From Oscillospiraceae bacterium (GTDB lineage Bacteria; Bacillota; Clostridia; Oscillospirales; Oscillospiraceae): a DNA stretch of 64,000 nt. This document shows positions 1 through 63,300 of this stretch, piece after piece (the first letter of the stretch is position 1; every line of letters begins with the position of its first letter). The stretch is from contig JAETQF010000013.1 of assembly GCA_021770845.1 (NCBI GenBank), positions 1 to 64,000 of the forward strand, in the 5' to 3' direction. The translations under genes were made by a program, and so were the position numbers. Below the pieces are notes generated by a model. It was not told the DNA's origin and searched no databases. It was given only the letters and a program-made list of their open reading frames with translations.

Positions 1-465
1 TTCACCTCCAAGCTGGCCGGCACCGAGCGGGGCATCACCGAGCCCACCCCCACCTTCTCCGCCTGCTTCGGCCAGGCCTTCCTGGAGCTGCACCCCACCA
101 AGTACGGTGAGGAGCTGGTGAAGAAGATGGAGAAGTCCGGCGCCAAGGCCTACCTGGTGAACACCGGCTGGAACGGCACCGGCAAGCGCATCTCCATCAA
201 GGACACCCGCGGCATCATCGACGCCATCCTGGACGGCTCCATCCTGAAGGCCGAGACCAAGACCATCCCCTACTTCAACCTGGCGGTGCCCACCGCCCTG
301 CCCGGCGTTGACCCCGCCATCCTGGATCCCCGGGACACCTACGCCGACGCCTCTGAGTGGGACACCAAGGCCAAGGATCTGGCCGGCCGCTTCGTGAAGA
401 ACTTCGTGAAGTACACCGGCAACGACGCCGGCAAGGCCCTGGTGGAGGCCGGCCCGTCGGTGTAA
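1..465 (+). CDS. pckA: Phosphoenolpyruvate carboxykinase (ATP), C-terminal part
   Basis: This is the C-terminal 154 residues of an ATP-dependent PEP carboxykinase; the frame is open from base 1, so the gene begins upstream of the window. The enzyme interconverts oxaloacetate plus ATP with PEP, CO2 and ADP in the cytoplasm. Seen: the stretch [11 protein letters not shown] followed by [14 protein letters not shown], then [12 protein letters not shown] and [14 protein letters not shown], all typical of the C-terminal half of this family, which is usually about 530 residues. It ends with TAA at 463-465. Its location directly before the oxaloacetate decarboxylase genes puts two enzymes of the oxaloacetate node side by side, but a 216-bp gap with a repeat element lies between them, so they need not share one transcript. 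Confidence 0.96.
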
Positions 466-575
466 CAAAGTCCGCTCTGCTGCGCTTCCGCCTGACGGCG
501 AAAGCTCCGCCCGCTCCCTTTGTTCCACCTCTCCCCACGCGACCCGCTTCGCTGGGCTCGCGCGGGGGCCCCATT
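466..575 (-). repeat. Structured dispersed repeat, copy 1 (inverted orientation)
   Basis: Non-coding element between pckA and oadA. Read on the minus strand it starts with GGGGCCCCCGC, has a hairpin whose arms are GCGAGCCCAGC / GCGGGTCGC, then GTGGGGAGAGG, a purine-rich stretch, a second hairpin AGCTTTCGCCG / CAGGCGGAAGC, and ends in AGCGGACTTTG. The same order of blocks occurs at 22036-22141 and 46668-46773 with different arms in the first hairpin. A further GC hairpin lies at about 602-628, and the oadA ribosome binding site follows. Function unknown; no long ORF here has coding character. Confidence 0.75.
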
Positions 576-681
576 GAACTGCATAGACCGGGCGAACGAG
601 GGCGCCGTGCTTCGGCGCGGCGCTCCGTTTTCCCGCCCCCGACCGGAACCAAGCCAAGAGAAATTTGGAGGTGTATCCAAT

Positions 682-2085
682 TTGAAGAAACAGGTTCAGT
701 TCACGGAGACCGTGCTCCGTGACGCAAACCAGTCCCTGATGGCCACCCGCCTGCCCTACTCCGACTACGCCGACATCCTGTCCACCATGGACAAGGCCGG
801 CTACTACTCGGTGGAGTGCTGGGGCGGCGCCACCTTTGACTCCTGCCTGCGCTACCTGGGAGAGGATCCCTGGGAGCGGCTGCGCAACATCCGCAAGAAT
901 ATGCCCAACACCCGGCTGCAAATGCTGCTCCGGGGCCAGAACCTGCTGGGCTACAAGCACTACCACGACGACGTGGTGGAGAAGTTCGTGGAGCTGTCCA
1001 TCAAGAACGGCATCGACGTGATCCGCATCTTCGACGCCCTCAACGACTTCCGCAACATCACCACCGCCCTGGAGGCCACCAAGAAGTACGCCAACAAGCG
1101 CACCGTGGCCTCCGGCTGCATCTCCTACACCCAGAGCCCGGTGCACACCGTGGCCAAGTACGTGGAAATGTGCAAGGAGCTCAAGAACATGGGCTTCGAC
1201 ACCATCTGCCTGAAGGACATGGCGGGCACCATGAGCCCCAACGAGGCCGAGGGCCTCATCAAGGGCATCAAGGACGCCATCGGCGATATGCCCATCATCC
1301 TCCACACCCACTGCACCACCGGCATGGCCTACATGACCCTGATGAAGGCCATCGACTCCGGGGTGGACGTCATCGACACCGCCACCTCCTGCTTCTCCAA
1401 CGGCACCAGCCAGGCGGCCACCGAGACCATGTTCTACGCCCTCCAGCAGTACGGTGTGGACACCGGCCTCAACGAGGACGTGATCAACAAGGTCAACGAC
1501 TACTTCAAGCCCATCAAGCAGAAGTATGTGGATTCCGGCCTCATCAACCCCAAGAGCATGGCCACCGATTCCCAGGCCCTGGTGTACAAGGTGCCCGGCG
1601 GGATGCTGTCCAACATGATCGCCAACCTGAAGGATCTCAACGCCATGGACAAGTTCGACGCCGCCCTGGCCGAGATCCCCAGCGTCCGGGCCGACCTGGG
1701 CTATCCCCCGCTGGTGACCCCCCTGTCCCAGATGGTGGGCAACCAGGCCGTCACCAACGTGCTGATGGGCGAGCGGTACAAGCAGATCTCCAAGGAGATC
1801 AAGAACTACTTCAAGGGCGAGTACGGCATCGCCCCCGCCCCCGTCAGCCCCGAGCTGGAGGCCAAGATCCTGGGCGAGGGCGGCAAGCCCGTGGACTGCC
1901 GCATTGAGGACTCCAAGCGCACCGGCGAGGAGTTCAAGGCCGCCCGGGAGGCCCTGGGCGACCTGTGCCGCTCCGAGGAGGATGTGATGAGCTACATCTG
2001 CTTCCCGGATCAGGCGGAGAAGTTCTTCCAGGATCGCAAGGCCAAGGAGGAGAACGTGGCCACCTACACCATCACCGAGGCGTAA
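682..2085 (+). CDS. oadA: Oxaloacetate decarboxylase, alpha (carboxyltransferase) subunit
   Basis: Carboxyltransferase that moves the carboxyl group of oxaloacetate to the biotin of a carrier protein. I start it at TTG 682, because GGAGGTG at 666-672 is 9 nt upstream and the protein then begins MKKQVQFTETVLRDANQSL, the normal start of the family; an in-frame upstream extension would be translated repeat sequence. Seen: the HMGL-like TIM barrel with RDANQS near residue 15, LLRGQNLLGY, KDMAGTM and the metal-binding HTHCTTGMAYM, followed by the conserved carboxylase domain. At 467 residues it lacks the C-terminal biotinyl domain of the roughly 600-residue enterobacterial OadA; that domain is encoded separately at 2459. 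Pyruvate carboxylase subunit B is the nearest alternative, but the OadG and OadB neighbours favour the sodium-pumping decarboxylase. Confidence 0.93.
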   Translation: MKKQVQFTETVLRDANQSLMATRLPYSDYADILSTMDKAGYYSVECWGGATFDSCLRYLGEDPWERLRNIRKNMPNTRLQMLLRGQNLLGYKHYHDDVVEKFVELSIKNGIDVIRIFDALNDFRNITTALEATKKYANKRTVASGCISYTQSPVHTVAKYVEMCKELKNMGFDTICLKDMAGTMSPNEAEGLIKGIKDAIGDMPIILHTHCTTGMAYMTLMKAIDSGVDVIDTATSCFSNGTSQAATETMFYALQQYGVDTGLNEDVINKVNDYFKPIKQKYVDSGLINPKSMATDSQALVYKVPGGMLSNMIANLKDLNAMDKFDAALAEIPSVRADLGYPPLVTPLSQMVGNQAVTNVLMGERYKQISKEIKNYFKGEYGIAPAPVSPELEAKILGEGGKPVDCRIEDSKRTGEEFKAAREALGDLCRSEEDVMSYICFPDQAEKFFQDRKAKEENVATYTITEA

Positions 2086-2097
2086 GGAGGGAGACGT

Positions 2098-2457
2098 ATG
2101 AATACTCTCGCGCTTACCGCCGGCAGGCTGAACGTGGGCGACGCCGGCGTCACCGCCGTGCTGGGCTACGCTGTGGTGTTTTTCGGGCTGGTGCTGCTGA
2201 TGTGCGTGATCATGATCATGGGCAAGGCCATGGCGAGCTCCGGCAAGAAGGCCGACACCAAGGCGCCCGCGGCTGCGGCCCCGGCTCCGGCGGCTCCTGC
2301 CGCGCCTTCCGCGCCCCCGGCCCCCGGCTCCGCCGGCGAGATCAAGCTGTTCGACGTGCCCGACAAGGAGGCCGCCATGATCATGGCGATTGTGGCCGAC
2401 CAGATGGGCAAGCCGCTGAACGAGCTGCGCTTCAAGTCCATTAAGGAGGTCAAGTGA
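2098..2457 (+). CDS. oadG: Sodium-pump decarboxylase gamma subunit (OadG family)
   Basis: Small 119-residue membrane protein expected to hold the alpha subunit to the membrane-bound beta subunit. Seen: one strong transmembrane helix at about residues 20-42 (AVVFFGLVLLMCVIMIMG), then an Ala/Pro-rich flexible linker at about 55-78, then a short folded tail. This is the layout of OadG. The start at ATG 2098 has GGAGGG seven bases upstream, and the gene ends one base before the biotin carrier gene, so translation is probably coupled. The C-terminal part (VPDKEAAMIMAIVADQMGKP) has no recognised catalytic motif. Confidence 0.85.
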   Translation: MNTLALTAGRLNVGDAGVTAVLGYAVVFFGLVLLMCVIMIMGKAMASSGKKADTKAPAAAAPAPAAPAAPSAPPAPGSAGEIKLFDVPDKEAAMIMAIVADQMGKPLNELRFKSIKEVK

Positions 2458-2458
2458 A

Positions 2459-2860
2459 ATGAAATATAAAGTGACCCTGAACGGCCGCACCTACGAGGTG
2501 GAGGTGGACGCCGGAAAGGCTATGCTGACCGACGAGTACGAGGCCTATGCCCCCGCCCCCGCCGCTCCTGCCGCCCCCGTTGCTGCGGCCCCTGCCGCTG
2601 CTCCCGCCCCGGCCGCGGCCCCGGCGGCCCCCGCCGTCACCGCCGCGGGCGAGCCCGTGGAGTCCCCTATGCCCGGCACCATCCTTCGGGTAGAGGTGGC
2701 CCAGGGCGCCGCCGTCAAGGAGGGCCAGCTGCTGGTGGTGCTGGAGGCCATGAAGATGGAAAACGAGATTCTCGCCCCCAAGGACGGCACCGTCGCCCAG
2801 GTGGTGGTGCAGAAGGGCAGCCATGTGGAGACCGGTTCGCCGCTGATCATCCTGGCGTAA
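2459..2860 (+). CDS. Biotin carboxyl carrier protein of the decarboxylase
   Basis: 133-residue biotinyl protein that carries CO2 between the OadA carboxyltransferase and the OadB sodium pump. Seen: a short N-terminal beta segment (MKYKVTLNGRTYEVEVD), a long Ala/Pro linker at about residues 30-62, then a biotinyl/lipoyl domain with the biotinylation motif EAMKMEN near residue 97 (the lysine is the attachment site). This resembles the gamma subunit of glutaconyl-CoA and methylmalonyl-CoA decarboxylases as much as the OadA C-terminus, so I leave the symbol blank. It sits 1 bp after oadG and 12 bp before oadB, inside one operon. Confidence 0.93.
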   Translation: MKYKVTLNGRTYEVEVDAGKAMLTDEYEAYAPAPAAPAAPVAAAPAAAPAPAAAPAAPAVTAAGEPVESPMPGTILRVEVAQGAAVKEGQLLVVLEAMKMENEILAPKDGTVAQVVVQKGSHVETGSPLIILA

Positions 2861-2872
2861 GGAGGGGCTTCT

Positions 2873-4297
2873 ATGAATATCTTGGAAACCCTGTCCAAGC
2901 TGGCCACCGAGTCCGGCTTTGCCGGGTTCTTCGCGGCGGGCGGCTGGAAAAACCTGATCATGATCGCCATCGCCTGCGTGCTGCTCTACCTGGGCATCGG
3001 CAAGAAGTTCGAGCCGCTGCTGCTGGTGGGCATCGCTTTCGGCGTGCTGCTGACCAACATCCCCGGCGCGGGGCTGTACCACATGGGGATGTGGGACGCC
3101 TACGTGTATGAGTGCGCCTATGACCCCGTCAACGACTACGCCCTCTACAATACGGCGCAGGAGCGGGCCTATGACGAGATGGAGATGAACTATTATATCG
3201 TAGCCCGGGCCAGCGGCCACACCACGGAGCAGATCGAGGACTACTTCGAGCAGCAGGCCGGGGCAGACGTCACCAATGACTTCCTGGCCCTGTACGCCAC
3301 GTGCGACCAGAACGCAGCCAACGACCTGGCGGGCAAGCTAAAAGGAAGCCTGTCCTTCACCGACATCATTCATCTGGGCGGCCTGCTGGATATCCTGTAT
3401 ATCGGCGTGAAGGCGGGTGTGTATCCCTGCCTGATCTTCATGGGCGTGGGCGCCATGACCGACTTTGGCCCCATGATCGCCCGGCCCTCCTCCATGCTCA
3501 TGGGCGCGGCGGCGCAGCTGGGCGTGTTCTTCGCCTTCTTCGGCGCCTGCCTGCTGGGCTTCGCCGGCAACGTGGCCGCCTCCATCGGCATCATCGGCGG
3601 CGCGGACGGGCCCACGGCCATCTACCTGACCACGAAGCTGGCCCCGGCCTTCCTGGGCCCCATCGCCATCGCCGCCTACTCCTATATGGCCCTGATCCCC
3701 ATGATCCAGAAGCCCCTGATGCGGGCGCTGACCACGGAGAAGGAGCGGAAGGTGAAGATGGAGCAGGCCCGGAACGTGTCCAAGGTGGAGAAGATCATCT
3801 TCCCCATCGTGGTGTCCGTGTTCGTGATTCTGCTGATCCCCTCCACCGCCCCCCTCATCGGCTGCCTGATGTTCGGCAACCTGCTGCGTGAGACGGGCGT
3901 CACCGAGCGCCTGTCCGATACCGCCCAGAACGCCCTGATGAATATCGTCACCCTGTTCCTGGGCATCAGCGTGGGCGCCACCACCGTGGCCGCCCGGTTC
4001 CTGTCCCTCCAGACCCTGATGATCGTGGGCCTGGGCGTCATCGCCTTCATGTTCTCCACCATCGGCGGCCTGCTGATGGGCAAGATCATGTACAAGGTGT
4101 CCGGCGGCAAGATCAACCCGCTGATCGGCTCCGCCGGCGTGTCCGCCGTCCCCATGGCGGCCCGGGTGTCCCAGGACGTGGGCCGGGAGTCCAACCCCAA
4201 CAACTTCCTGCTGATGCACGCCATGGGCCCCAACGTGGCCGGCGTCATCGGCTCCGCCATCGCGGCCGGCTTCCTGCTGGCCCGGTTCGGCGGCTGA
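2873..4297 (+). CDS. oadB: Sodium-translocating decarboxylase beta subunit with an insertion
   Basis: Polytopic membrane subunit that decarboxylates carboxybiotin and exports sodium. Seen: family motifs GVGAMTDFGPMIARP, GGADGPTAIYLTTKLAP (the conserved DGPT region of the ion path), SVGATTVAARFL and HAMGPNVAGVIGSAIAAG at the C-terminus. It is 474 residues, longer than the roughly 370-430 usual for the family. The extra length is near residues 75-150, a soluble, acidic and tyrosine-rich stretch (for example ERAYDEMEMNYYIVARASGH) between the first membrane helices and the LGGLLDILYIGVKAG helix. It closes the oad operon and is followed directly by a strong terminator. Specificity (oxaloacetate rather than another acid) rests on OadA. 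Confidence 0.92.
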   Translation: MNILETLSKLATESGFAGFFAAGGWKNLIMIAIACVLLYLGIGKKFEPLLLVGIAFGVLLTNIPGAGLYHMGMWDAYVYECAYDPVNDYALYNTAQERAYDEMEMNYYIVARASGHTTEQIEDYFEQQAGADVTNDFLALYATCDQNAANDLAGKLKGSLSFTDIIHLGGLLDILYIGVKAGVYPCLIFMGVGAMTDFGPMIARPSSMLMGAAAQLGVFFAFFGACLLGFAGNVAASIGIIGGADGPTAIYLTTKLAPAFLGPIAIAAYSYMALIPMIQKPLMRALTTEKERKVKMEQARNVSKVEKIIFPIVVSVFVILLIPSTAPLIGCLMFGNLLRETGVTERLSDTAQNALMNIVTLFLGISVGATTVAARFLSLQTLMIVGLGVIAFMFSTIGGLLMGKIMYKVSGGKINPLIGSAGVSAVPMAARVSQDVGRESNPNNFLLMHAMGPNVAGVIGSAIAAGFLLARFGG

Positions 4298-4310
4298 GCT
4301 GCCCGAACAA

Positions 4311-4343
4311 AGTCCCCCGCCCATCCCGGGCGGGGGACTTTTT
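4311..4343 (+). terminator. Intrinsic terminator of the oad operon
   Basis: AGTCCCCCGCCC and GGGCGGGGGACT form a 12-bp stem with a 4-5-nt loop, followed by TTTTT. It lies 14 bases after the oadB stop. Confidence 0.9.
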
Positions 4344-4381
4344 GCCTGCCCCCGGGGCTTTTCTTTTTCCCCCGACTGTGA

Positions 4382-4387
4382 TATAAT
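4382..4387 (+). promoter_or_regulatory. Probable -10 element for cobB
   Basis: TATAAT 24 bases before the cobB start. The -35 position shows only a T-rich run (TTTTCT), so the promoter is a moderate prediction. AAGGAGGGAGG at about 4396-4406 is the ribosome binding site. Confidence 0.5.
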
Positions 4388-4410
4388 CCCCTCAAAAGGA
4401 GGGAGGGCCC

Positions 4411-5133
4411 ATGACTCCTCAGGAACAGCTGCAGCAATGGATTGCGGACAGCGGCAACATCGTCTTTTTCGGCGGGGCGGGCGTGTCCACCGAAAGCGGC
4501 ATCCCGGACTTCCGCAGCGTGGACGGCCTCTACAATCAGAAGTACGACCAGCCGCCGGAGACCATCCTCAGCCACACCTACTTTGAGGCCCGGACGGAGG
4601 ACTTCTACCGCTTCTACCGGGACAAGATGCTGTGCCTGGACGCCCAGCCCAACGCCGCCCACAAAAAGCTGGCGGAGCTGGAGCAGGCGGGCAAGCTGAA
4701 GGCGGTGGTGACCCAGAACATCGACGGCCTCCACCAGGCGGCGGGCAGCCGGACGGTGTACGAGCTCCACGGCTCCGTCCACCGGAACTACTGCACCAGG
4801 TGCCGCGCCTTCTACGGCGTGGACTTCATCGCCGATGGCCAGGGCGTGCCCCGGTGCCCCGTGTGCGGCGGGCTGGTGAAGCCCGACGTGGTGCTCTACG
4901 AGGAGGGGCTGGATCAGGACACCATCGAGGGCGCCGTGCTGGCCATCAGCCGTGCGGACGTGCTCATCGTGGGGGGCACCTCCCTGGTGGTGTACCCGGC
5001 GGCGGGACTCATCAACTACTACCGTGGGAACAAGCTGGCCCTCATCAACCGGGATCCCACCCCCTATGACGGGCAGGCGGATCTGGTGATCCACGACTCC
5101 ATCGGAAGGGTGCTGGGAGGGATCGGGCTGTGA
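4411..5133 (+). CDS. cobB: NAD-dependent protein deacylase, classical sirtuin
   Basis: Removes acetyl or other acyl groups from lysine using NAD, giving nicotinamide and O-acyl-ADP-ribose. Seen: the NAD-binding motif GAGVSTESGIPDFRS at about residues 21-35, TQNIDGLHQAAG with the conserved Asn/Asp, the catalytic histidine in ELHGSVHRNYC, a four-cysteine zinc site (CTRC and CPVC), and GGTSLVVYPA near the C-terminus. Length 240 is normal. The ribosome binding site is strong and ATG 4411 is the first start after it. The next gene overlaps its stop codon, so the two are translationally coupled. A second, atypical sirtuin is encoded at 8840. Confidence 0.95.
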   Translation: MTPQEQLQQWIADSGNIVFFGGAGVSTESGIPDFRSVDGLYNQKYDQPPETILSHTYFEARTEDFYRFYRDKMLCLDAQPNAAHKKLAELEQAGKLKAVVTQNIDGLHQAAGSRTVYELHGSVHRNYCTRCRAFYGVDFIADGQGVPRCPVCGGLVKPDVVLYEEGLDQDTIEGAVLAISRADVLIVGGTSLVVYPAAGLINYYRGNKLALINRDPTPYDGQADLVIHDSIGRVLGGIGL

Positions 5134-6023
5134 GAGACCAGCGAGTGGCCCGGGCCATGCCGGTGCTGGCGGCTCTGGGCAAGTCTGTGTGCTACCTGGC
5201 GCTGTTTGTGGGGATGCAGGTGGCCATCATGCTGCCGGAGACGGTGTATATCGGCGTAATGGCCGCCCTGGGGGGCGACGTGGAGGAGCTGTACGACCAG
5301 CTCATGGCCAGCGCCATGACCTACACCATGATCTCCGGCCTGCTGACCATCGCCATTGTCATCGCCGTTTACCGCCTGCGCCGCAAGCCCATGGCGGAGG
5401 CGCTGTGGCTCCGGGGGGTGGACGGCCCCACCCTGCTGACGGGGGCGGCCCTGGCCCCGGCGCTGTACCTGATCGTGGGCGGGGCGCTGGCCCTGCTGCC
5501 GGAGGCGTGGCTGGAGAGCTACAACGAGGCCTCCGCCGGCATTGACAGCGGCACCCTCACCGGGGTGCTGGCGGTGGCGGTGGTGGCCCCGGTGGTGGAG
5601 GAGCTCATCTTCCGGGGGCTGATGCTGAACCGCCTGAGCCAGGTGATGCCCGGGTGGCTGGCGGCGGTGCTGTCCTCCGCCGCCTTCGGGGTGTGCCACG
5701 GGCACCCGGTCTGGTTTGCCTACGCCTTTGTGCTGGGGGCCTTCTTCGCCCTGCTGGATCTGCGGGCCCAGTCCATCCTGCCCTCCATCCTGGGCCATAT
5801 CGCCTTTAACGCCATCAGCCAGATCCTGTCCTTCGTGCCCGAGGAGGGGGAAGGGGCGGCGCTGGTGGTGCTGATCCTTGCCGCCATCGCGGCCCCCATC
5901 CTGAACCGGAGGGGCGTGGCGGCCCTGTTCCGGCGCAGGCCCAGGCAGGCGGCCCTGCCCGCCCCGGACTGGGATCTGCCCACCCAGCCGGGAACCTATG
6001 ACTACAACCCCTGGGACGAGTGA
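5130..6023 (+). CDS. CPBP-family intramembrane glutamic protease
   Basis: Membrane protease of the CPBP (CAAX protease / bacteriocin-processing, Abi) family, 297 residues with about eight hydrophobic segments. Seen: motif 1 VVEELIFRGLML (the EE and R of the active site) at about residues 156-167, motif 2 AFGVCHGHPVWFAYAFVLG, and a third conserved histidine/asparagine in HIAFNAISQI. It starts at GTG 5130, which overlaps the TGA of cobB, with GGGAGG at 5115-5120 as ribosome binding site. The C-terminal 35 residues are soluble and rich in Pro and Arg. The substrate cannot be told; pairing with cobB may only be an operon arrangement. Confidence 0.88.
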   Translation: MRDQRVARAMPVLAALGKSVCYLALFVGMQVAIMLPETVYIGVMAALGGDVEELYDQLMASAMTYTMISGLLTIAIVIAVYRLRRKPMAEALWLRGVDGPTLLTGAALAPALYLIVGGALALLPEAWLESYNEASAGIDSGTLTGVLAVAVVAPVVEELIFRGLMLNRLSQVMPGWLAAVLSSAAFGVCHGHPVWFAYAFVLGAFFALLDLRAQSILPSILGHIAFNAISQILSFVPEEGEGAALVVLILAAIAAPILNRRGVAALFRRRPRQAALPAPDWDLPTQPGTYDYNPWDE

Positions 6024-11012: not shown

Positions 11013-13205
11013 TTACTTCGTGCTGATGGTGGCCGTCCTGGTCTCTCCGATCCAGCCCACCGTGAAGGTGCCCATGGCCTCGGCCAGGTCACGCAGCCGG
11101 TAGTAGCTGGTGTCGCCGCCGTTGGCGTCGGTGATCATGAAGTACCGGATCCCCTTCTGCACCCCGTTCACCAGCACCGGAGCGGTGCCCATGCGGTAGG
11201 GCTGGGGGCCCACAAAGCGCAGCTGGCACTCCACGGCGTTGTTGTGGTTGGGATAGGGGGCGTACCGCTTGCCGGTGACCAGATTGATGGATCCGTTCCA
11301 GGACACGTCGAAGATCCCCTTCTGATCCCACAGCGCGTCAGTCATGAACCAGGCCAGATCCCGCACCGCCACATAGTTCTCACCGTTGAGCATATAGGTA
11401 TAGAGGGTGAAGGCCCTGGACTCGTCGCCGTTCACCACCACCCGCTGCACGTTGGGGTTGACCCGCTGGGGCTCCTGGGTGGCCTGGCCGGGGTTCACGT
11501 CGTAGGCGCACACGCCGTAGTGCAGGGTGTTCACCAGGATCTCCGGCCTGCCATCGCCGTCGATATCGGTCACGGTGGGGGCGGCATAGGAGCCGTTGTC
11601 CGTCTTGACCGCGTCGTACTCATAGATGGAGGGGTGAAGCTTGTGCTTGGTGATCAGCTTGCCGCTGCCGTCCAGCACGTAGAGGGAGCCGTCCACCCCG
11701 GTTCTGGTGCCGGCGGCGTTGGAAGTCCAGGAGGCAAAGACGACCTCCTTCTTCCCGTCGCCGTTGAGGTCGGCGGCCACCGGCTCGCCGGCGATCTCGT
11801 ACACGGAGCCGTTGGTGCCGGGCAGGACGTAGGGCCAGCCCTCCAGCTCCCGGCTGCTGTCCCGCAGGGAGTAGCAGTGGATCTTGCCGTCGAAGGAGTT
11901 AAACAGGATCTCGTTCACCCCGTCGCCGTTGACGTCGGCCACCAGGGGCGCCAGCTGCACGCCGCCGCTGACGCTGTTGGCGTTCTGGTTCAGGGGGGCG
12001 CCCAGGCCGGGGTTGGTCAGGTTGGTGGGGATAGTCTCCCAGCCGCTGAACCGGGTGTGATCCTGGTTCAGGATGTACACGGTGGCGTACTTGGTGTCCC
12101 GGACGGTGAAGGGATTCCGGCTGCCGGGGTTCTGGAAATAGACGGTGCGATCCGCCATCAGGGCGGACACCACCACCTCGGACTTGCCGTCCCCGTCCAC
12201 GTCCACATAGCGGGCGATGGAGGCGGTCATGGAGGGGCCATAGGTGCCCGCGCGGCCCTTCTGGGCCAGGGACTCCCAATCCAGGCCGATGCCCCAGCCG
12301 CCGTTGTCCCGCTTCAGCTCGCGGCTGTAGTCCTCATAGAGGCCCACGGCGCCCCAGGGGATCCGCCCGCCAAAGCTGAACTGATCCTGCTGGCTGCTCT
12401 GGAAGCTGCCGCCGGCCATCACGGGGGTGCCGTCGCCGTTGAAGGCGTTGACGAAGAAGTTGTCGGTGGGCATGATGATCTCGGGCAGGCCGTCGCCGTC
12501 CAGGTCGCCGGTGGCGATGCCGTTGGCGTAGATGCCGTCCATATAGGAGTAGGGCAGGGCCCCGCCCACCTCCGCCTTGGGCCAGCCGGGCTTCAGATTG
12601 CCGTCACAGCCGTAGACGTACAGGCTGACGGAGTGGGCCACGCCCAGGCCGGCGATGATCTCCTGCCTGCCGTCGCCGTCCACGTCGGCCGCCGCCAGCG
12701 CCCAGACGGCGCCGCCGGTGCTCTTGGGCCAGCCGGACAGGAAGTAGCCCTGATTGTTCAGCACGGAGATGGTGCCGTTGGCGTAGGCCACGGCGATCTC
12801 CAGCTTGCCGTCGCCGTCCAGATCCTTGACGATGGGGGTGGTGTACACCTTGCCGTCCGCCGCGTTCCCGCCCTTGTCATAGCGGGCGTAGGGGGTGGAG
12901 CGATCCCGGCCGGCGTTGACCTGCCACTTCACCTTGCCGGTGGCGGCGTCCGCCACGGTGAGGGAGTAGGCGGCGGTGACCACCTCCAGCTTGCCGTCGC
13001 CGTCCAGATCCACCACCACGGGGGCGGCGTAGTAGGACTCCTCTACGTACTCGATGCCGGAGTGGGCCTCAAGCACCTGCTGGCCGCCCACCAGGGTGTA
13101 CTTTTCCTTCAGCCCGATCACCGAGGGCTCCGCGGCGTAGGCCGCGGGGACGGCCAGCGAACAGAACAGCGCCAGGGACAACACAAGGGACAGAGCTTTC
13201 TTCAT
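11013..13205 (-). CDS. Secreted FG-GAP/VCBS repeat protein with C-terminal stalk-like domain
   Basis: 730-residue exported protein. Seen: a signal peptide (KKALSLVLSLALFCSLAVPA, likely cut after AYA), then at least eight calcium-binding FG-GAP/VCBS-type blades with motifs such as DLDGDGKLEVV, DVDGDGRQEII, DLDGDGLPEII, DVDGDGKSEVV, DVNGDGVNEIL, DLNGDGKKEVV and DIDGDGRPEIL spread over residues 50-590, suggesting a beta propeller. The last 140 residues (YMLNGENYVAVRDLAWFM and YYRLRDLAEAMGT) look like the two halves of a copper-amine-oxidase-N-like domain common on Clostridia surface proteins. No catalytic motif or LPXTG anchor is visible. A cell-surface binding or scaffold role is inferred. Start ATG 13203-13205 has AAAGGTG upstream. 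Confidence 0.88.
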   Translation of the reverse strand: MKKALSLVLSLALFCSLAVPAAYAAEPSVIGLKEKYTLVGGQQVLEAHSGIEYVEESYYAAPVVVDLDGDGKLEVVTAAYSLTVADAATGKVKWQVNAGRDRSTPYARYDKGGNAADGKVYTTPIVKDLDGDGKLEIAVAYANGTISVLNNQGYFLSGWPKSTGGAVWALAAADVDGDGRQEIIAGLGVAHSVSLYVYGCDGNLKPGWPKAEVGGALPYSYMDGIYANGIATGDLDGDGLPEIIMPTDNFFVNAFNGDGTPVMAGGSFQSSQQDQFSFGGRIPWGAVGLYEDYSRELKRDNGGWGIGLDWESLAQKGRAGTYGPSMTASIARYVDVDGDGKSEVVVSALMADRTVYFQNPGSRNPFTVRDTKYATVYILNQDHTRFSGWETIPTNLTNPGLGAPLNQNANSVSGGVQLAPLVADVNGDGVNEILFNSFDGKIHCYSLRDSSRELEGWPYVLPGTNGSVYEIAGEPVAADLNGDGKKEVVFASWTSNAAGTRTGVDGSLYVLDGSGKLITKHKLHPSIYEYDAVKTDNGSYAAPTVTDIDGDGRPEILVNTLHYGVCAYDVNPGQATQEPQRVNPNVQRVVVNGDESRAFTLYTYMLNGENYVAVRDLAWFMTDALWDQKGIFDVSWNGSINLVTGKRYAPYPNHNNAVECQLRFVGPQPYRMGTAPVLVNGVQKGIRYFMITDANGGDTSYYRLRDLAEAMGTFTVGWIGETRTATISTK

Positions 13206-17051: not shown

Positions 17052-17169
17052 GACGGGGCCCCCGCAAAGCCGCCCTTCAGGCTTTGTGGGGAAGCGAGGA
17101 AATTTCCCGTCCGGCGCAGCTTTCCGCCGCCCTTCAGGCGGGAAGCGGAGCGGTAAGGGGAATTTCCGA
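17052..17169 (+). repeat. Structured dispersed repeat, copy 2
   Basis: Between tRNA-Lys and tRNA-Gln. Blocks in order: GGGGCCCCCGC, arms CAAAGCC / GGCTTTG with loop GCCCTTCA, GTGGGGAAGCGAGG, then a second hairpin CAGCTTTCCGCCG / AGGCGGGAAGCGG. In tRNA-operon orientation it follows the CCA end of tRNA-Gln by 2 bases. Confidence 0.75.
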
Positions 17170-17171
17170 GC

Positions 17172-17376: not shown

Positions 17377-17458
17377 ATATGCAATTGGAACTGCCAAAAC
17401 GAGCCTCCGCAAAGCCAACAAACGAAACCCCACGGAGAAAGGGCGGACTTTGGCCCAA

Positions 17459-17570
17459 CGGGGCCCCCGCAAAGCCGTCCCTTGGCTTTGTGGGGAAAGG
17501 AGGAAGGAATGGAGCGGGTGGAGTCCTCGCCAAAGGCGGGGACGGAATGGAGCGGAATTTCTTCCGACGC
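17459..17570 (+). repeat. Structured dispersed repeat, copy 3
   Basis: Between tRNA-His and tRNA-Arg; nearly identical to copy 4 over about 110 nt. Blocks: GGGGCCCCCGC, arms CAAAGCC / GGCTTTG, GTGGGGAAAGGAGGAAGGAA, and a second hairpin GTCCTCGCC / GGCGGGGAC. Before it (17402-17458) lies a degraded partial unit containing CCGCAAAGCC and GGACTTTGG. Confidence 0.8.
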
Positions 17571-17703: not shown

Positions 17704-17813
17704 AACGGGGCCCCCGCAAAGCCGCCCTTTGGCTTTGTGGGGAGAGGAGGAAGGAATGGAGCGGGTGGAGTCCTCGCCGAAGGCGGGGACGGAACAGAGC
17801 GGAATTTCTTCCG
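17704..17813 (+). repeat. Structured dispersed repeat, copy 4
   Basis: Between tRNA-Arg and tRNA-Gly. Same block order as copy 3 with scattered substitutions that keep the hairpins (arms CAAAGCC / GGCTTTG and GTCCTCGCC / GGCGGGGAC). AGCGGACTTTGCG at 17688-17700, just before it, is the tail block of another unit, as if two units once lay in tandem. Confidence 0.8.
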
Positions 17814-17816
17814 ACG

Positions 17817-22028: not shown

Positions 22029-22035
22029 TACCAAA

Positions 22036-22141
22036 ACGGGGCCCCCGCAAAGCCGTCCTTCAGGCTTTGTGGGGAGAGGAGGGGCAAGGGAGCGGGCGCA
22101 GCTTTCGCCGCAGGCGGAAGCGGAGCTTAGCGGACTTTGCC
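22036..22141 (+). repeat. Structured dispersed repeat, copy 5
   Basis: The cleanest copy: GGGGCCCCCGC, arms CAAAGCC / GGCTTTG with loop GTCCTTCA, GTGGGGAGAGGAGG, GGGAGCGGGCG, second hairpin CAGCTTTCGCCG / AGGCGGAAGCGG, and tail AGCTTAGCGGACTTTG. It fills the gap between the PF06541 and HIT genes. Confidence 0.8.
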
Positions 22142-22147
22142 CCGACG

Positions 22148-22486
22148 TCAGCCGGGAGGCCAGGTCATATCCCGGCCCGCCAGCACGTGGAAGTGCAGAT
22201 GGGGCACGGACTGGCCCGCCTGCTCGCCGCAGTTGGACACCACCCGGAAGTCGGTGACGCCCAGCTCCCTGGTCACCTTGGCGATAACCTCAAAGATGTG
22301 GGCCGTCACAGCGGAATTCTCCCCGGTGATCTCCCCGCAGGAGCCAATGTGGGTTTTGGGGATCACCAGGAAATGGACGGGGGCCTGGGGATCGATGTCA
22401 TAAAAGGCCAGGCATTGCTCGTCCTCATAGACCTTTTTGGAGGGGATCTCCCCCTTGACAATTTTGCAGAACAGGCAGTCGGGCAT
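22148..22486 (-). CDS. HIT-family (HINT-like) nucleotide hydrolase
   Basis: 112-residue histidine-triad protein; family members hydrolyse purine nucleoside phosphoramidates such as AMP-lysine. Seen: the N-terminal CLFCKIVKGEIPSKKVYEDE, and the catalytic triad VPHLHFHVLAGR near the C-terminus. The two N-terminal cysteines, spaced CxxC, can form half of a zinc site as in many HINTs. It is the last gene of a small group with the cupin and DUF4250 genes, separated by 13 bp from the cupin. Confidence 0.95.
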   Translation of the reverse strand: MPDCLFCKIVKGEIPSKKVYEDEQCLAFYDIDPQAPVHFLVIPKTHIGSCGEITGENSAVTAHIFEVIAKVTRELGVTDFRVVSNCGEQAGQSVPHLHFHVLAGRDMTWPPG

Positions 22487-46381: not shown

Positions 46382-46667
46382 AATAACTCCTTTATAAGTT
46401 TGGTAAAGTTTTTTTGCGCAAGACACGGAGGGCGGATCAAACTGTCCGCCCTGCCGTCCCTATGTAGATGGCGGAGGAAGCTGGGCATAACAAAAGTCCG
46501 GCGCGAACCTGCCGCGCCCGGCCCGCGCGGGCGGCGGACAGCTTCCGGTTCGCCCCCACCCGGCCCTGTCTCGCCGGGATGGAGCGTCCGGGCCGTCCGG
46601 CCCCGCGCCCTGTGCCCATCCGCTCTGCCTATCAAACACCGCTGCCACCAGCGGTTTACGCCTCGTC

Positions 46668-46853
46668 GGCACAAGCTGCGCTCATTCGCTTCCACCTGCG
46701 GCGAAAGCTCATCCGCTCCGCTGTGCCTCCTCTCCCCACAAAGCCTGAAGGGCGGCTTTGCGGGGGCCCCATAAGGGCAAAGTCCGCTCGACTCCGTTTC
46801 CTTGCTTCTCCCCTGCCCACAAAAGTAAAGGGCGCTTTTGCGGAGCCCCATTG
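46668..46853 (-). repeat. Structured dispersed repeat, copies 6 and 7 (tandem, inverted)
   Basis: In the 730-bp gap between rnj and the HTH gene. Read on the minus strand, 46668-46773 has GGGGCCCCCGC, arms CAAAGCC / GGCTTTG, GTGGGGAGAGGAGG and the second hairpin AGCTTTCGCCG / AGGTGGAAGCG. A second, shorter unit at 46780-46853 keeps the tail AGCGGACTTTG and has arms CAAAAG / CTTTTG. Together they form the tandem. The rest of the gap (46382-46667 and 46854-46985) shows no coding signal I trust. Confidence 0.75.
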
Positions 46854-58919: not shown

Positions 58920-59149
58920 TTGACAGCCCCGGCGGCTCTTTGTTAGAATTGGAACAGCGAATCCCCAAACCCACCCGGCCCGGCTACTCCCTTGGGCGCA
59001 GCACGCCCATAGCCGCGCCGAGGAGAAAAAAGGAGGAAAATCCGCGAACCGGCGGTGCGGCAATGTGGAGACTTGCCGTAATGTCCACGGGGTAAACCCC
59101 CCGCGGGCGAGGGCGCGCTGCGGAGGCGGCGTGTCTGCGGTTCACCGCT
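58920..59149 (+). promoter_or_regulatory. Promoter and long leader of the UgpC-type ATPase gene
   Basis: TTGACA at 58920-58925 and TAGAAT at 58944-58949 (18-nt spacer). The leader of about 190 nt contains GAGGAGAAAAAAGGAGGAAAA (59016-59040, a purine run that could look like a ribosome site but is 110 bases from the start codon), short hairpins such as GGGGTAAACCCC (59090-59101) and GCGGCGTGTCTGCGG. The start codon itself has no good Shine-Dalgarno within 12 bases. The rest of the 361-bp gap is plain. Confidence 0.6.
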
Positions 59150-60289
<1,140 letters not shown>

Positions 60290-60347: not shown

Positions 60348-63300
60348 TTACTCTACGGTTTTCAGGCTCTCCACCATATCCACCTTTTTCAGCTTGAAGT
60401 GGGCCGCGATGTTCACCATCACGGAGAACACCACCGTCAGCGCCGCCGCCAGCACATAGGCGTAGGGGGGCGCGGTGCGGCCGAACATCACGATGTCCAC
60501 CTCCACCGTCAGCACCATCCAGGCGTGGAGGAACCGGCCCATCACCAGCCCCAGAACGATGCCGAACAGGGTGAGGAACACGTTCTCCCGGTAGACATAG
60601 GCGGTGATCTCCTTGTCGAAGAAGCCCAGCACCTTCAGGGTGGCCAGCTCCCGGGTGCGCTCGGTGATGTTGATGTTGGTCAGGTTGTAGAGCACCACGA
60701 AGGCCAGCGCCGCCGCCGACAGGATGATGATCACCACCGCGTAGTCGATGGCCTCCATGCTGTTGGTGAAGCTGTCCCGGATGGCGGCGATGTAGGAGTG
60801 GGAGGTCACCGCGTCCATGGCCATGAGCTGGGCGGACACCTCGTCCGACTGCGCCCCGTCCCCGTACTTCAGCAGGATCAGGTTCTGGGCCGGGGTCTCG
60901 CCCAGCAGCCGCTCATAACAGGCCACCGACAGATAGACGTTGTGCTGGACATAGTGCTCCACAATGTCGTCCACCCGCACGTCCACCCGTCCGTCCTTGT
61001 CCAGGGTAATGGTGTCGCCCACCTCCACCCCCAGCAGCTCGGACAGCTTTTCCGTGATGACGGCGCCGTCCTCTGGCAGGGCCACCGCCCCGTCGTCCTG
61101 CCGGTGGCGCAGGTTCATGAACCGGGTGAAGCCCTCGAAGTCGTCGATGGCGTACAGCCCCACGTCGTAGGCCACCCCGCCAGCGGAGGCCTCCGCCGTG
61201 TGCTGGCTGGTGAGGTGCCACCGCTCCACCTTGCCGCTGTTGTCCAGATAGTCCGTCACCGCCGCCAGCTCGTCCGGGGCCGCGTCCTCGTCCAGCCCCA
61301 CCGTGGCGTCGTAGAGGGAGATCTCGTCAAACTGCTTGTTGAGGATGGCGAAAATGGACTCGTGGAGCCCGAAGCCGGTGACAATCAGGGCGGTGCAGCC
61401 GCCGATGCCGATCACCGTCATCCAGAACCGCCGCTGGTAGCGGAACAGGTTCCGCATGGTCACCTTCCAGGTGAAAGTGAGCCGCTTCCAGATAAAGCCC
61501 ACCCGCTCCAGCAGCACCCGCTTGCCCGCCTTGGGGGCCTTGGGGCGCATCAGGTTGGCGGGGGTGGCGATCAGCGTGGACAGGCAGGCCCACAGCGCCG
61601 CCCCGGTGGTGCACAGCACCGCCGCCAGCACCGCCAGCACGCACAGCACCGTCTGCTCCCGGAACTCCAGGGGGGGCATGGCGTACATGATGTTGAAGGC
61701 GTTGGCGATCACCGCCGGGATCAGGGTGCAGCCGATGGCCAGGCCCAGAATTCCACCCAGGAGGCTGGCCAAAAAGGCGTAGCCGATGTACTTTTTGGAG
61801 ATGGACAGCCGGGAGAAGCCCATGGCCTTCAGCGCACCGATCTCGGTGCGCTGCTCCTCCACCATCCGGGTCATGGTGGTCAGGCAGGCCAGCGCCGCCA
61901 CCAGGAAGAAGATCACCGGGAAGATGGTGGCCAGATTGCTCACCCGCTCCGTGTCCTGGTCGAAGCCCACGAAGCCCGCGTTGGTGTTCCGCCCCAGGAC
62001 GTACCACTGGCACTCCTCCACCTTGCCCAGCTCGTCCCGGGCGTCGTCCAGCTTCTGCTGGGCGTCGGCGATCTTCTCGTCCGCCTCGGCCCTGCCGTCC
62101 TCGTACTCCTTCAGGCCGTCGGCGTACTCCGCCTCGCCGTCCTCCAGCTTTTGCAGGGCGTCGGCCAGCTCCTGCTCGCCGTCCCGCCGGGCCTGGGCCA
62201 GATCGGCCTGCCCGTCTTGGTAGTCCCGGCGGCCGTCGGCGATCTCCCGCTCTGCCTGGGCCAGCTGCCGCCCGGTGTCGTCCAGGGTGGCTCGGGCGCT
62301 GTCCAATTCCGCCTTGGAGGCGTCCAGCACTGCACGGCTTTCGTCCAGCTGGGCCTTCACCCCGTCCAGCTGGGCCTTCACCGGGGCCAGCTGGGCATAG
62401 CCCTCGTCCAGGGCGGCCTGGGCCCCGTCCAGCTGGGCCTTCTGCTCCGCCAGCTGGGCCTTCACCTGCTCATAGGCCGGGGTGCCCTCCGCCTGCTTCA
62501 GCGCCGCCTCATACTGGGCCAGCCCTTCGTTTACCTGGGCCTGCTGGCCGTCCAGGGCAGCCTTGTTCTTCTGGTACTCCGCCAGCCCGTCCTGGTACTG
62601 GGCCAGCCCCGCCTGGTACTGGGCCAGCCCGTCCTCGTACTGATCCAGCCCGTCCTCGTACTGGGCCAGCCCGTCCTCATACTGGGCGCGGCCGTCGTCC
62701 AGCTCCCTCTGGGCGTCGTTCAGCTTTTGCAGGGCGTCCGCCAGCGTCCGCCGGGCGTCGGCCAGCTCCCGCTCCAGGGTGTCCTGCCCCTCCCGGTAGT
62801 CCACCCAGCCGTCGTCCAGCTCCTTCCGGGCGTCGTCCAGCTCCTGTTTGCCGTCAGCAAGCTCCTGTTCCGCGTCGGCTTTTGCGTCGTCAAGCTCTTT
62901 CTGGGCGTCGTCCAGCTCCTTCTGCGCGTCCCCGATGAGGGTGTCGTACCGGAGCTGGGCCCGCTCCTCCGCCAGCCCGTCCAGGCTGTCCAGAAGGGCC
63001 TCCGCCCGATCCTCGTACTCGTCGCTGTAGCTGTCCAGCTCCTTGAGCCCCCGGCCGGTGAAATAGGCGGCGGTGTAATAGTCATAGGTGAAATTCTCCC
63101 CCGGCACGAACAGGAAGGCGTCCACCGATCCGCTGCCCAGGGAGGAGGTGCCCCGGTCGGTGCCCACGTACAGCGGGCAGTTCACCACGCCCACGATGGT
63201 GTAGGAGGTGTGCACCAGATCCCCCTCGTGATCCTCGTCCAGCACCAGCTCCACCGTGTCCCCCACGTCCAGCCCCAGCTCCACCAGCAGCAGGCCCTCG

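Follow-up and report, generated by a model that had tools for sequence, protein, structure and literature searches.

The intergenic repeat studied here is one copy of a real, structured, and mobile element that is found class-wide. It folds on one strand, is present or absent between relatives, inserts in a polar manner with one fixed end, and shows direct duplications where genes end. This copy is located in a stretch of 64,000 nt (hereafter the window) that corresponds to contig C31 of an Oscillospiraceae genome (G000; 48 contigs, 82% complete), referred to below as its own genome. Six copies and a short relative had been listed there in an earlier note; all of them are present, with coordinates within 10 nt of ours (Table 1), and a repeat search of the window recovered the copies independently (entries D4, D9, I1, I3, I5, and I10).

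Table 1. Copies of the element in the window, with covariance-model boundaries, and parts of the copy under study
Feature	Position	Strand	Remarks
Full copy, variant hairpin I	458-575	-	3' end overlaps PEPCK gene end (1-465, +) by 8 nt
Divergent copy	17052-17171	+	3' end flush (0 nt) with tRNA-Gln 3' end, antisense
Full copy	17457-17569	+	3' end 3 nt off tRNA-Arg 3' end
Full copy	17704-17816	+	3' end flush (0 nt) with tRNA-Gly 3' end
Copy under study	22035-22147	+	CGACG end abuts stop codon (TCA on +) of HIT-domain gene 22148-22486 (-)
Hairpin I of 22035 copy	22043-22074	+	12-bp stem CCCCGCAAAGCC/GGCTTTGTGGGG, one G-T wobble
Conserved purine linker AGAGGA between hairpins	22075-22080	+	
Hairpin II of 22035 copy	22081-22143	+	outer stem GGGGCAAGG/CTTTGCCCC
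Hairpin II apical stem, 22035 copy	22101-22121	+	GCTTTCGCC/GGCGGAAGC, one T-G wobble
Full copy	46664-46773	-	in close relative G060, 27 nt of hairpin II missing
Short relative	46774-46852	-	direct tandem with 46664-46773; 31.8 bits; without hairpin II apical part and CGACG end

Architecture and fold of the element

The aligned copies have in common NNNGGGGCC and a hairpin I of 12 bp, which the linker AGAGGA separates from a long hairpin II made of two parts; they end in CGACG. The element runs from NGGGG to CGACG, and every base of the latter is conserved in 91 to 96% of 114 distinct ends. The block order proposed earlier was right in its two hairpins and purine-rich linker, but the stem of hairpin I measures 12 bp, including the flanking CCCC and GGGG, and the AGCGGACTTTG block, although present, is part of the 3' arm of the long hairpin II and not a separate tail.

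Standard pairs account for 93.8% of the cells in 16 copies from its own genome, in which both sides have changed in 17 of 32 pairs, compared to a shuffle mean of 6.9. Among 56 distinct distant rows, changes on both sides were found in 32 of 32 pairs, in an alignment fitted to the covariance model, which favors the modeled structure. On the plus strand we counted 508 G-U but 44 A-C cells (177 distinct rows). Because G-U cells are mismatches on the minus strand, the plus strand is the folding strand, either as RNA or as single-stranded DNA. U-G is the prevailing form of one apical pair of hairpin II in the genus set (87 rows in alignment A4 and 57 in A5), less so among distant copies. The fold is therefore real, though swapping of whole hairpins between copies would leave pairing intact and may account for some of the covariation seen within the genus.

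Distribution and genomic setting

A covariance model (R1) retrieved 31 matches at E ≤ 1 in its own genome and blastn retrieved 24 at E ≤ 0.01, so that chance is excluded. The earlier note had suggested such a model and a search of relatives, and had named few further copies or a described Rfam family as outcomes that would speak against it; many more structured copies were found instead. At E ≤ 0.01, the model matched 37 of 60 related genomes, its own included: 33 of 37 genomes of its own genus, with up to 54 copies, and 4 of 23 genomes from other families of the order. No match at this threshold was obtained in G010, G012, G013, and G026, which make up the other 4 of the 37 genus members. At E ≤ 1e-5, carriers amount to 28 of 148 genomes and 23 of 112 genera of the class, with its own genome and one congener counted.

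On the copies examined, no family of Rfam 15 reached its gathering score, be it in a scan of the window, with the 22035 copy, or with six loci; E-value scans of the 22035 copy and the six loci gave matches that were all far below that score. What the window scan returned at gathering score were tRNAs and malK-I only, the latter a known cis-regulatory RNA family (RF03069) at 58969 to 59155 (+) with 124.4 bits. The window further holds a coding repeat of about 40 to 56 nt within a minus-strand gene (11520 to 13023) and a 21-nt periodic array within a long minus-strand gene (62027 to 62931).

In sequence records, a 20-nt core of the element occurs in at least 113 stretches of genomes and a 19-nt core in 17 viral stretches. 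Full copies, confirmed by the model, are present in records of Christensenella, Traorella, Blautia, Mediterraneibacter, Lachnoclostridium, Fournierella, [Clostridium] clostridioforme, Yanshouia, and Anaerotruncus, and blastn matched one phage record and one Subdoligranulum plasmid record. At a phage locus (L225), four copies adjoin portal, capsid, and tail genes. A copy in Christensenella (L138) lies within a region (380 to 5852) that encodes Mob_Pre, RepA_N, and a streptomycin adenylyltransferase and is in large part common to records of several Clostridia.

We used a home-made codon-trained gene caller, trained on the window, to place the copies relative to genes. Of 137 distinct copies, 130 are intergenic, so the earlier statement that all copies are intergenic holds with few exceptions. 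The strands of the neighboring genes were ++ for 50 copies, -- for 37, +- for 15, and -+ for 12, the remaining copies having one neighbor missing. Since this orientation is near random, the fold is not a fixed-orientation mRNA signal, and a cis-regulator of that kind was rejected. The 5' end lies within 4 nt of an upstream stop codon in 18 copies and within 4 nt of a start codon in 0; the 3' end lies within 4 nt of a facing stop codon in 10 and of a start codon in 3.

Among 274 copies examined, 26 point their 3' end at that of a tRNA no more than 60 nt away; the gap is 0 to 3 nt in 25 of them and exactly 0 in 16. In the same set, no 5' end of the element lies less than 12 nt from any tRNA end, and one 3' end is separated from a tRNA 5' end by 2 nt. 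The 25 cases are not independent, because 16 of them (3 in the window and 13 in relatives) adjoin the tRNA genes for Gln, Arg, and Gly in a single cluster common to several genomes; with the 4 others in its own genome and 5 in distant genomes, they represent about 12 tRNA loci. Copies at tRNA 3' ends make up 7 of 30 in its own genome (the weakest of the 31 matches left out) and 5 of 56 among distant copies. A further copy of G000 stops 1 nt short of the apparent mature 5' terminus of a putative ssrA gene, recognized by its start, with counterparts in G002 and G033; ARAGORN reported no gene at this site in G000.

Four copies with low model scores (L045, L046, and L047, each 1501 to 1616, and L050, 1501 to 1606) are found at tRNA 3' ends, 0 to 2 nt away. 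The window copy at 17052 and L045 have a GAAGCGA-type linker in common, as well as a GAGC end replacing CGACG. Elsewhere in G000, L040 and L042 (C28:2076 and 2856) adjoin GTTTCACGTGAAAC palindromes that resemble parS sites, and so does the distant L396.

Direct duplications, empty sites, and turnover

Neither the polarity toward tRNA 3' ends, nor the wide range, nor the direct duplications described below had been reported in the earlier note, which had suggested inspecting the copies for target-site duplications. Such duplications are present, and their length varies. In 26 of 205 contexts, compared to 0.6 per shuffle, the sequence 0 to 5 nt past CGACG is a direct copy of the sequence left of the element (239 rows were collected; 218 passed the length and identity filters, and 205 were left after near-duplicate contexts had been dropped). 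These 26 stand for fewer independent events, as orthologous (L055/L056 and L031/L076) and tandem (L114/L356) cases are counted, along with L117 and the low-scoring L144. Duplications extend from about 0 to 2 nt (L036 and L038) up to 79 nt (L119), and some are identical over their length (57/57 at L309, 50/50 at L031, and 22/22 at L354). In the cases that we read, the intact gene end, stop codon included, was usually in the left copy, and the right copy was a fragment. At L031, where the element is absent in G060, the right copy continues into downstream DNA that G060 has without the element.

Immediately past the 3' end, 22 of the 26 cases have A and 4 have C; a T precedes the duplicate in 16 of 26, and the duplicate itself begins with G in 16 of 26. 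Among the distant copies, 7 of 56 reached the duplication score, compared to 2.2 per shuffle, and 4 start within 5 nt; several are tandem arrays, L396 being a clear single case.

We considered an integrative island or a tyrosine-integrase remnant, because it would explain both the restored gene ends and the tRNA sites. It was rejected: no second direct repeat bounding an island was found within the sequence available around 88 copies with long context (loci of >4 kb, window included), and the duplicated sequences differ from gene to gene.

We searched for the joined flanks of 16 own-genome copies in G060, G002, and G033. G060 yielded sites without the element for L029 and L038, and G002 yielded one for L036, with a duplication of 0 to 2 nt or a small deletion; for L002 and L033 the site was filled in a relative, and L026, L027, L028, L030, L039, and L041 gave no clean empty-site comparison. 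The site of the 22035 copy looks empty in G022, G064, and G032, and other genomes carry elements with different stems there. At one site in five genomes (L149, L333, L327, L322, and L324), the flanks are kept and the hairpins differ as whole units, with a duplication of 12 to 13 nt kept in the four rows counted.

Head-to-tail tandem arrays occur at L117 (6763 to 7093), L081 (1380 to 1621), and L189 (3575 to 3792), and in these the CGACG end of the inner units is missing or altered where the units meet.

Possible routes of spread and relation to known systems

We tentatively favor a family of small nonautonomous mobile elements in which a plus-strand RNA copy would be joined via its 3' end and copied at the target. 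The plus strand folds into the two hairpins joined by the purine linker. The folded copy, which is most likely RNA cut out of read-through transcripts (or else a single-strand copy), would attach via its 3' end (..CGACG[A]) to a free 3'-OH of the target strand, in many cases ahead of GG. Typical targets would be the 3' end of a tRNA gene or the vicinity of a stop codon. Copying of the element from the 3'-OH and fill-in of an offset cut could then produce a duplication of variable length, and insertions would persist wherever the duplicate leaves the end of the gene whole. The enzyme assumed to act in trans is a reverse transcriptase or a polymerase of the host. The covarying, strand-specific fold, the near-random orientation to genes, the empty sites, the duplications, the base past the 3' end, and the position at tRNA 3' ends speak for this explanation.

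Some observations count against this explanation. No 5'-truncated copies were noticed in passing, a visible duplication is kept in only 26 of the 205 contexts, 16 of the 25 tRNA cases come from one cluster, and the two copies of a duplication differ mostly at synonymous sites, as given below. RVT_1 is present in 9 of the 15 genus genomes with at least 20 model matches (the copy-rich set) and in 3 of 8 class carriers from other families, most assemblies being incomplete and the insertions possibly old. At E ≤ 1e-8, RVT_1 had no match in G018, G020, G023, G024, G031, and G036 (6 of the 15 copy-rich genomes) or in G034, which has 19 copies; at 1e-5, it had none in the single-contig G135, which has 10 model matches, or in G138, G114, G168, and G073 (5 of the 8 class carriers).

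A DNA-only, MITE-like element is a possible but rather unlikely alternative. Here a putative transposase or recombinase acting in trans would read the hairpins as folded single-stranded DNA and join the CGACG end. Transposition of single strands is known for the IS200/IS605 group. The sharp ends, the empty sites, and the copies in viral contigs and in a mobilizable region would agree with such a mechanism, and a fold of single-stranded DNA also tolerates G-T wobbles. Moreover, a Y1_Tnp (PF01797) match was found in 7 of the 8 class carriers from other families, some of them partial or with stops. Within the genus, however, Y1_Tnp had no match in 13 of the 15 copy-rich genomes and one each in G020 and G024, whereas it is plentiful in G012 and G026 (8 and 10 matches), both of which are without copies of the element. 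Variable-length duplications are also atypical of DDE and Y1 enzymes; the MITE of a DDE transposon has a short duplication of fixed length, unlike the range of about 0 to 79 nt seen here.

The left and right copies of the duplications differ at 78 synonymous versus 18 nonsynonymous positions (2 of 33 rows were skipped, and the count includes L117, a tandem array of the element, and L119:779, whose frame is uncertain). GC3 is 0.71 on the left versus 0.79 on the right, and 29 left versus 50 right of 64 differing codons end in G or C, in automatic frames of which that of L114 is visibly wrong, with its codons in the GC3 totals. Simple insertion followed by decay does not predict this pattern of mostly synonymous differences with a GC3-poorer left copy. 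A neutral right copy would not show it either; homologous recombination of whole alleles between species, or homing, could. At L171 the gene end on the left has been recoded, the right copy is similar to relatives that lack the element, and G000 and G002 have other sequence between the two genes.

In addition, at 8 places (L031, L069, L071, L075, L076, L114, and L119 twice) the bases adjoining GGGG are the reverse complement of the junction A|B, spanning -5..-8 to +3..+9 with scores of 9 to 13. Scores of at least 9 were reached by 9 of the 26 duplication-bearing copies versus 1.1% of permuted pairs. This upstream complement is a feature of a subset found via the duplications, and it could represent either a guide or a remnant of snap-back synthesis. 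It is doubtful, though conceivable, that the element is an RNA-based interspersed element in which a short structured RNA would be turned into DNA at 3' ends, with tRNA 3' ends and stop codons preferred, sometimes using a guide of 10 to 15 nt immediately 5' of the fold that would pair across the target junction, and carrying along a recoded gene end by which the target gene stays whole.

RNA-guided homing is improbable. It would take the 10 to 15 nt upstream as a guide pairing across A|B, such that the gene end, guide, and element together home into the same gene of another species, where the recoded end keeps the gene whole. The junction-spanning complements and the recoded end at L171 speak for it. 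However, the ninth case, L144, has its complement at -12..-3 and misses the junction, 16 of the 26 score at most 5, and over all copies complementarity between 40 nt upstream and 30 nt downstream is not in excess (5.16 versus 5.06). The leaders between duplication and element had no source at any unrelated locus among the loci compared, and snap-back copying of the overhang would leave the same mark. At L370 (G022:C9), an upstream complement, GCGCCAGCCAGTCGCCC, follows the gene although the element is absent.

Splicing of the group I intron type was considered since the complement spans A|B, and rejected as the main reading: copies lie almost only outside genes, the guide base opposite a T at the end of the left side of the junction is A and not the G of a U-G pair, and the right copy of a gene that we take to be recR-like is decayed in G000.

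It is quite improbable that the element is a host-beneficial RNA, for example, a 3'-end or tRNA-processing signal under selection at orthologous sites. The ssrA-side and tRNA-cluster sites do recur in several genomes and the structure is conserved, but a single site can hold different stem sequences, or none, in different genomes, the 4 genus genomes without a match lack it at that threshold, and orientation to genes is near random.

Small interspersed repeats of bacteria are usually explained by RAYT or DDE enzymes, and a class-wide family of this kind fits either explanation poorly. Its signature is unusual and testable: the fold is strand-specific, the 3' end coincides with the 3' ends of tRNAs, and the duplications are long, variable, and gene-sparing. 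The many natural insertion events offer a place to look for the mobilizing enzyme. The element could be a case of RNA-templated spread of small elements in bacteria, and it is a marker of exchange between gut Clostridia, phages, and mobilizable DNA.

SINE-like retroposons of eukaryotes are small, structured, RNA-like units with a fixed 3' end and duplications of variable length. The element has such duplications and a fixed 3' end as well, but it is bacterial, no tail was seen, and RVT_1, with matches in some carriers but not in others, does not clearly track it. The E. coli tyrT repeats, or rtT RNA, carry a copy of a tRNA 3' end at one locus, in which they are alike; no fold in common is known. 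The pneumococcal BOX and RUP repeats, which are modular and structured, are likewise small interspersed repeats in a Firmicute; the element has an architecture and insertion pattern of its own and is set apart from them by description, not by sequence. REPs and REPINs with their RAYT are also short, palindromic, present in many copies, and, like the element, probably mobilized in trans; the element differs in having no GTAG tag beside a 20- to 40-bp palindrome and in the lack of Y1 from 13 of 15 copy-rich genomes.

The earlier note had called the repeats a REP/MITE-like noncoding element of no described family. The genome-wide, structured nature and the REP-like lifestyle stand, membership among REPs does not, and Y1 does not track copy number in the genus. 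As to novelty, alongside the Rfam result, a literature search, with most subscription papers outside its reach, gave no description of the element family or of its insertion habit; a term search of PMC12306157 returned no Oscillospira or Clostridi names. CGTC-tagged REPs are described as 20 to 40 bp long, with one stem of 8 to 9 bp and a CCA tail, mostly arranged as head-to-head dimers, intergenic, near stop codons, without an associated transposase, and spread over five phyla, Firmicutes not among them (Di Nocera, De Gregorio and Rocco 2013, PMC3733652). The element resembles them in its CGTCG (the reverse complement of its 3' end, on the minus strand), its intergenic location near stop codons, and the apparent lack of a dedicated transposase; still, that it is a REP of the RAYT (GTAG) or CGTC superfamily is very improbable, given its two long hairpins over about 110 nt and its head-to-tail arrays. 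The conserved linker, the direct duplications, and the polarity toward tRNA 3' ends also set it apart from CGTC-tagged REPs. These are the closest published kind that we found, from which the element departs in size, stem, and tail.
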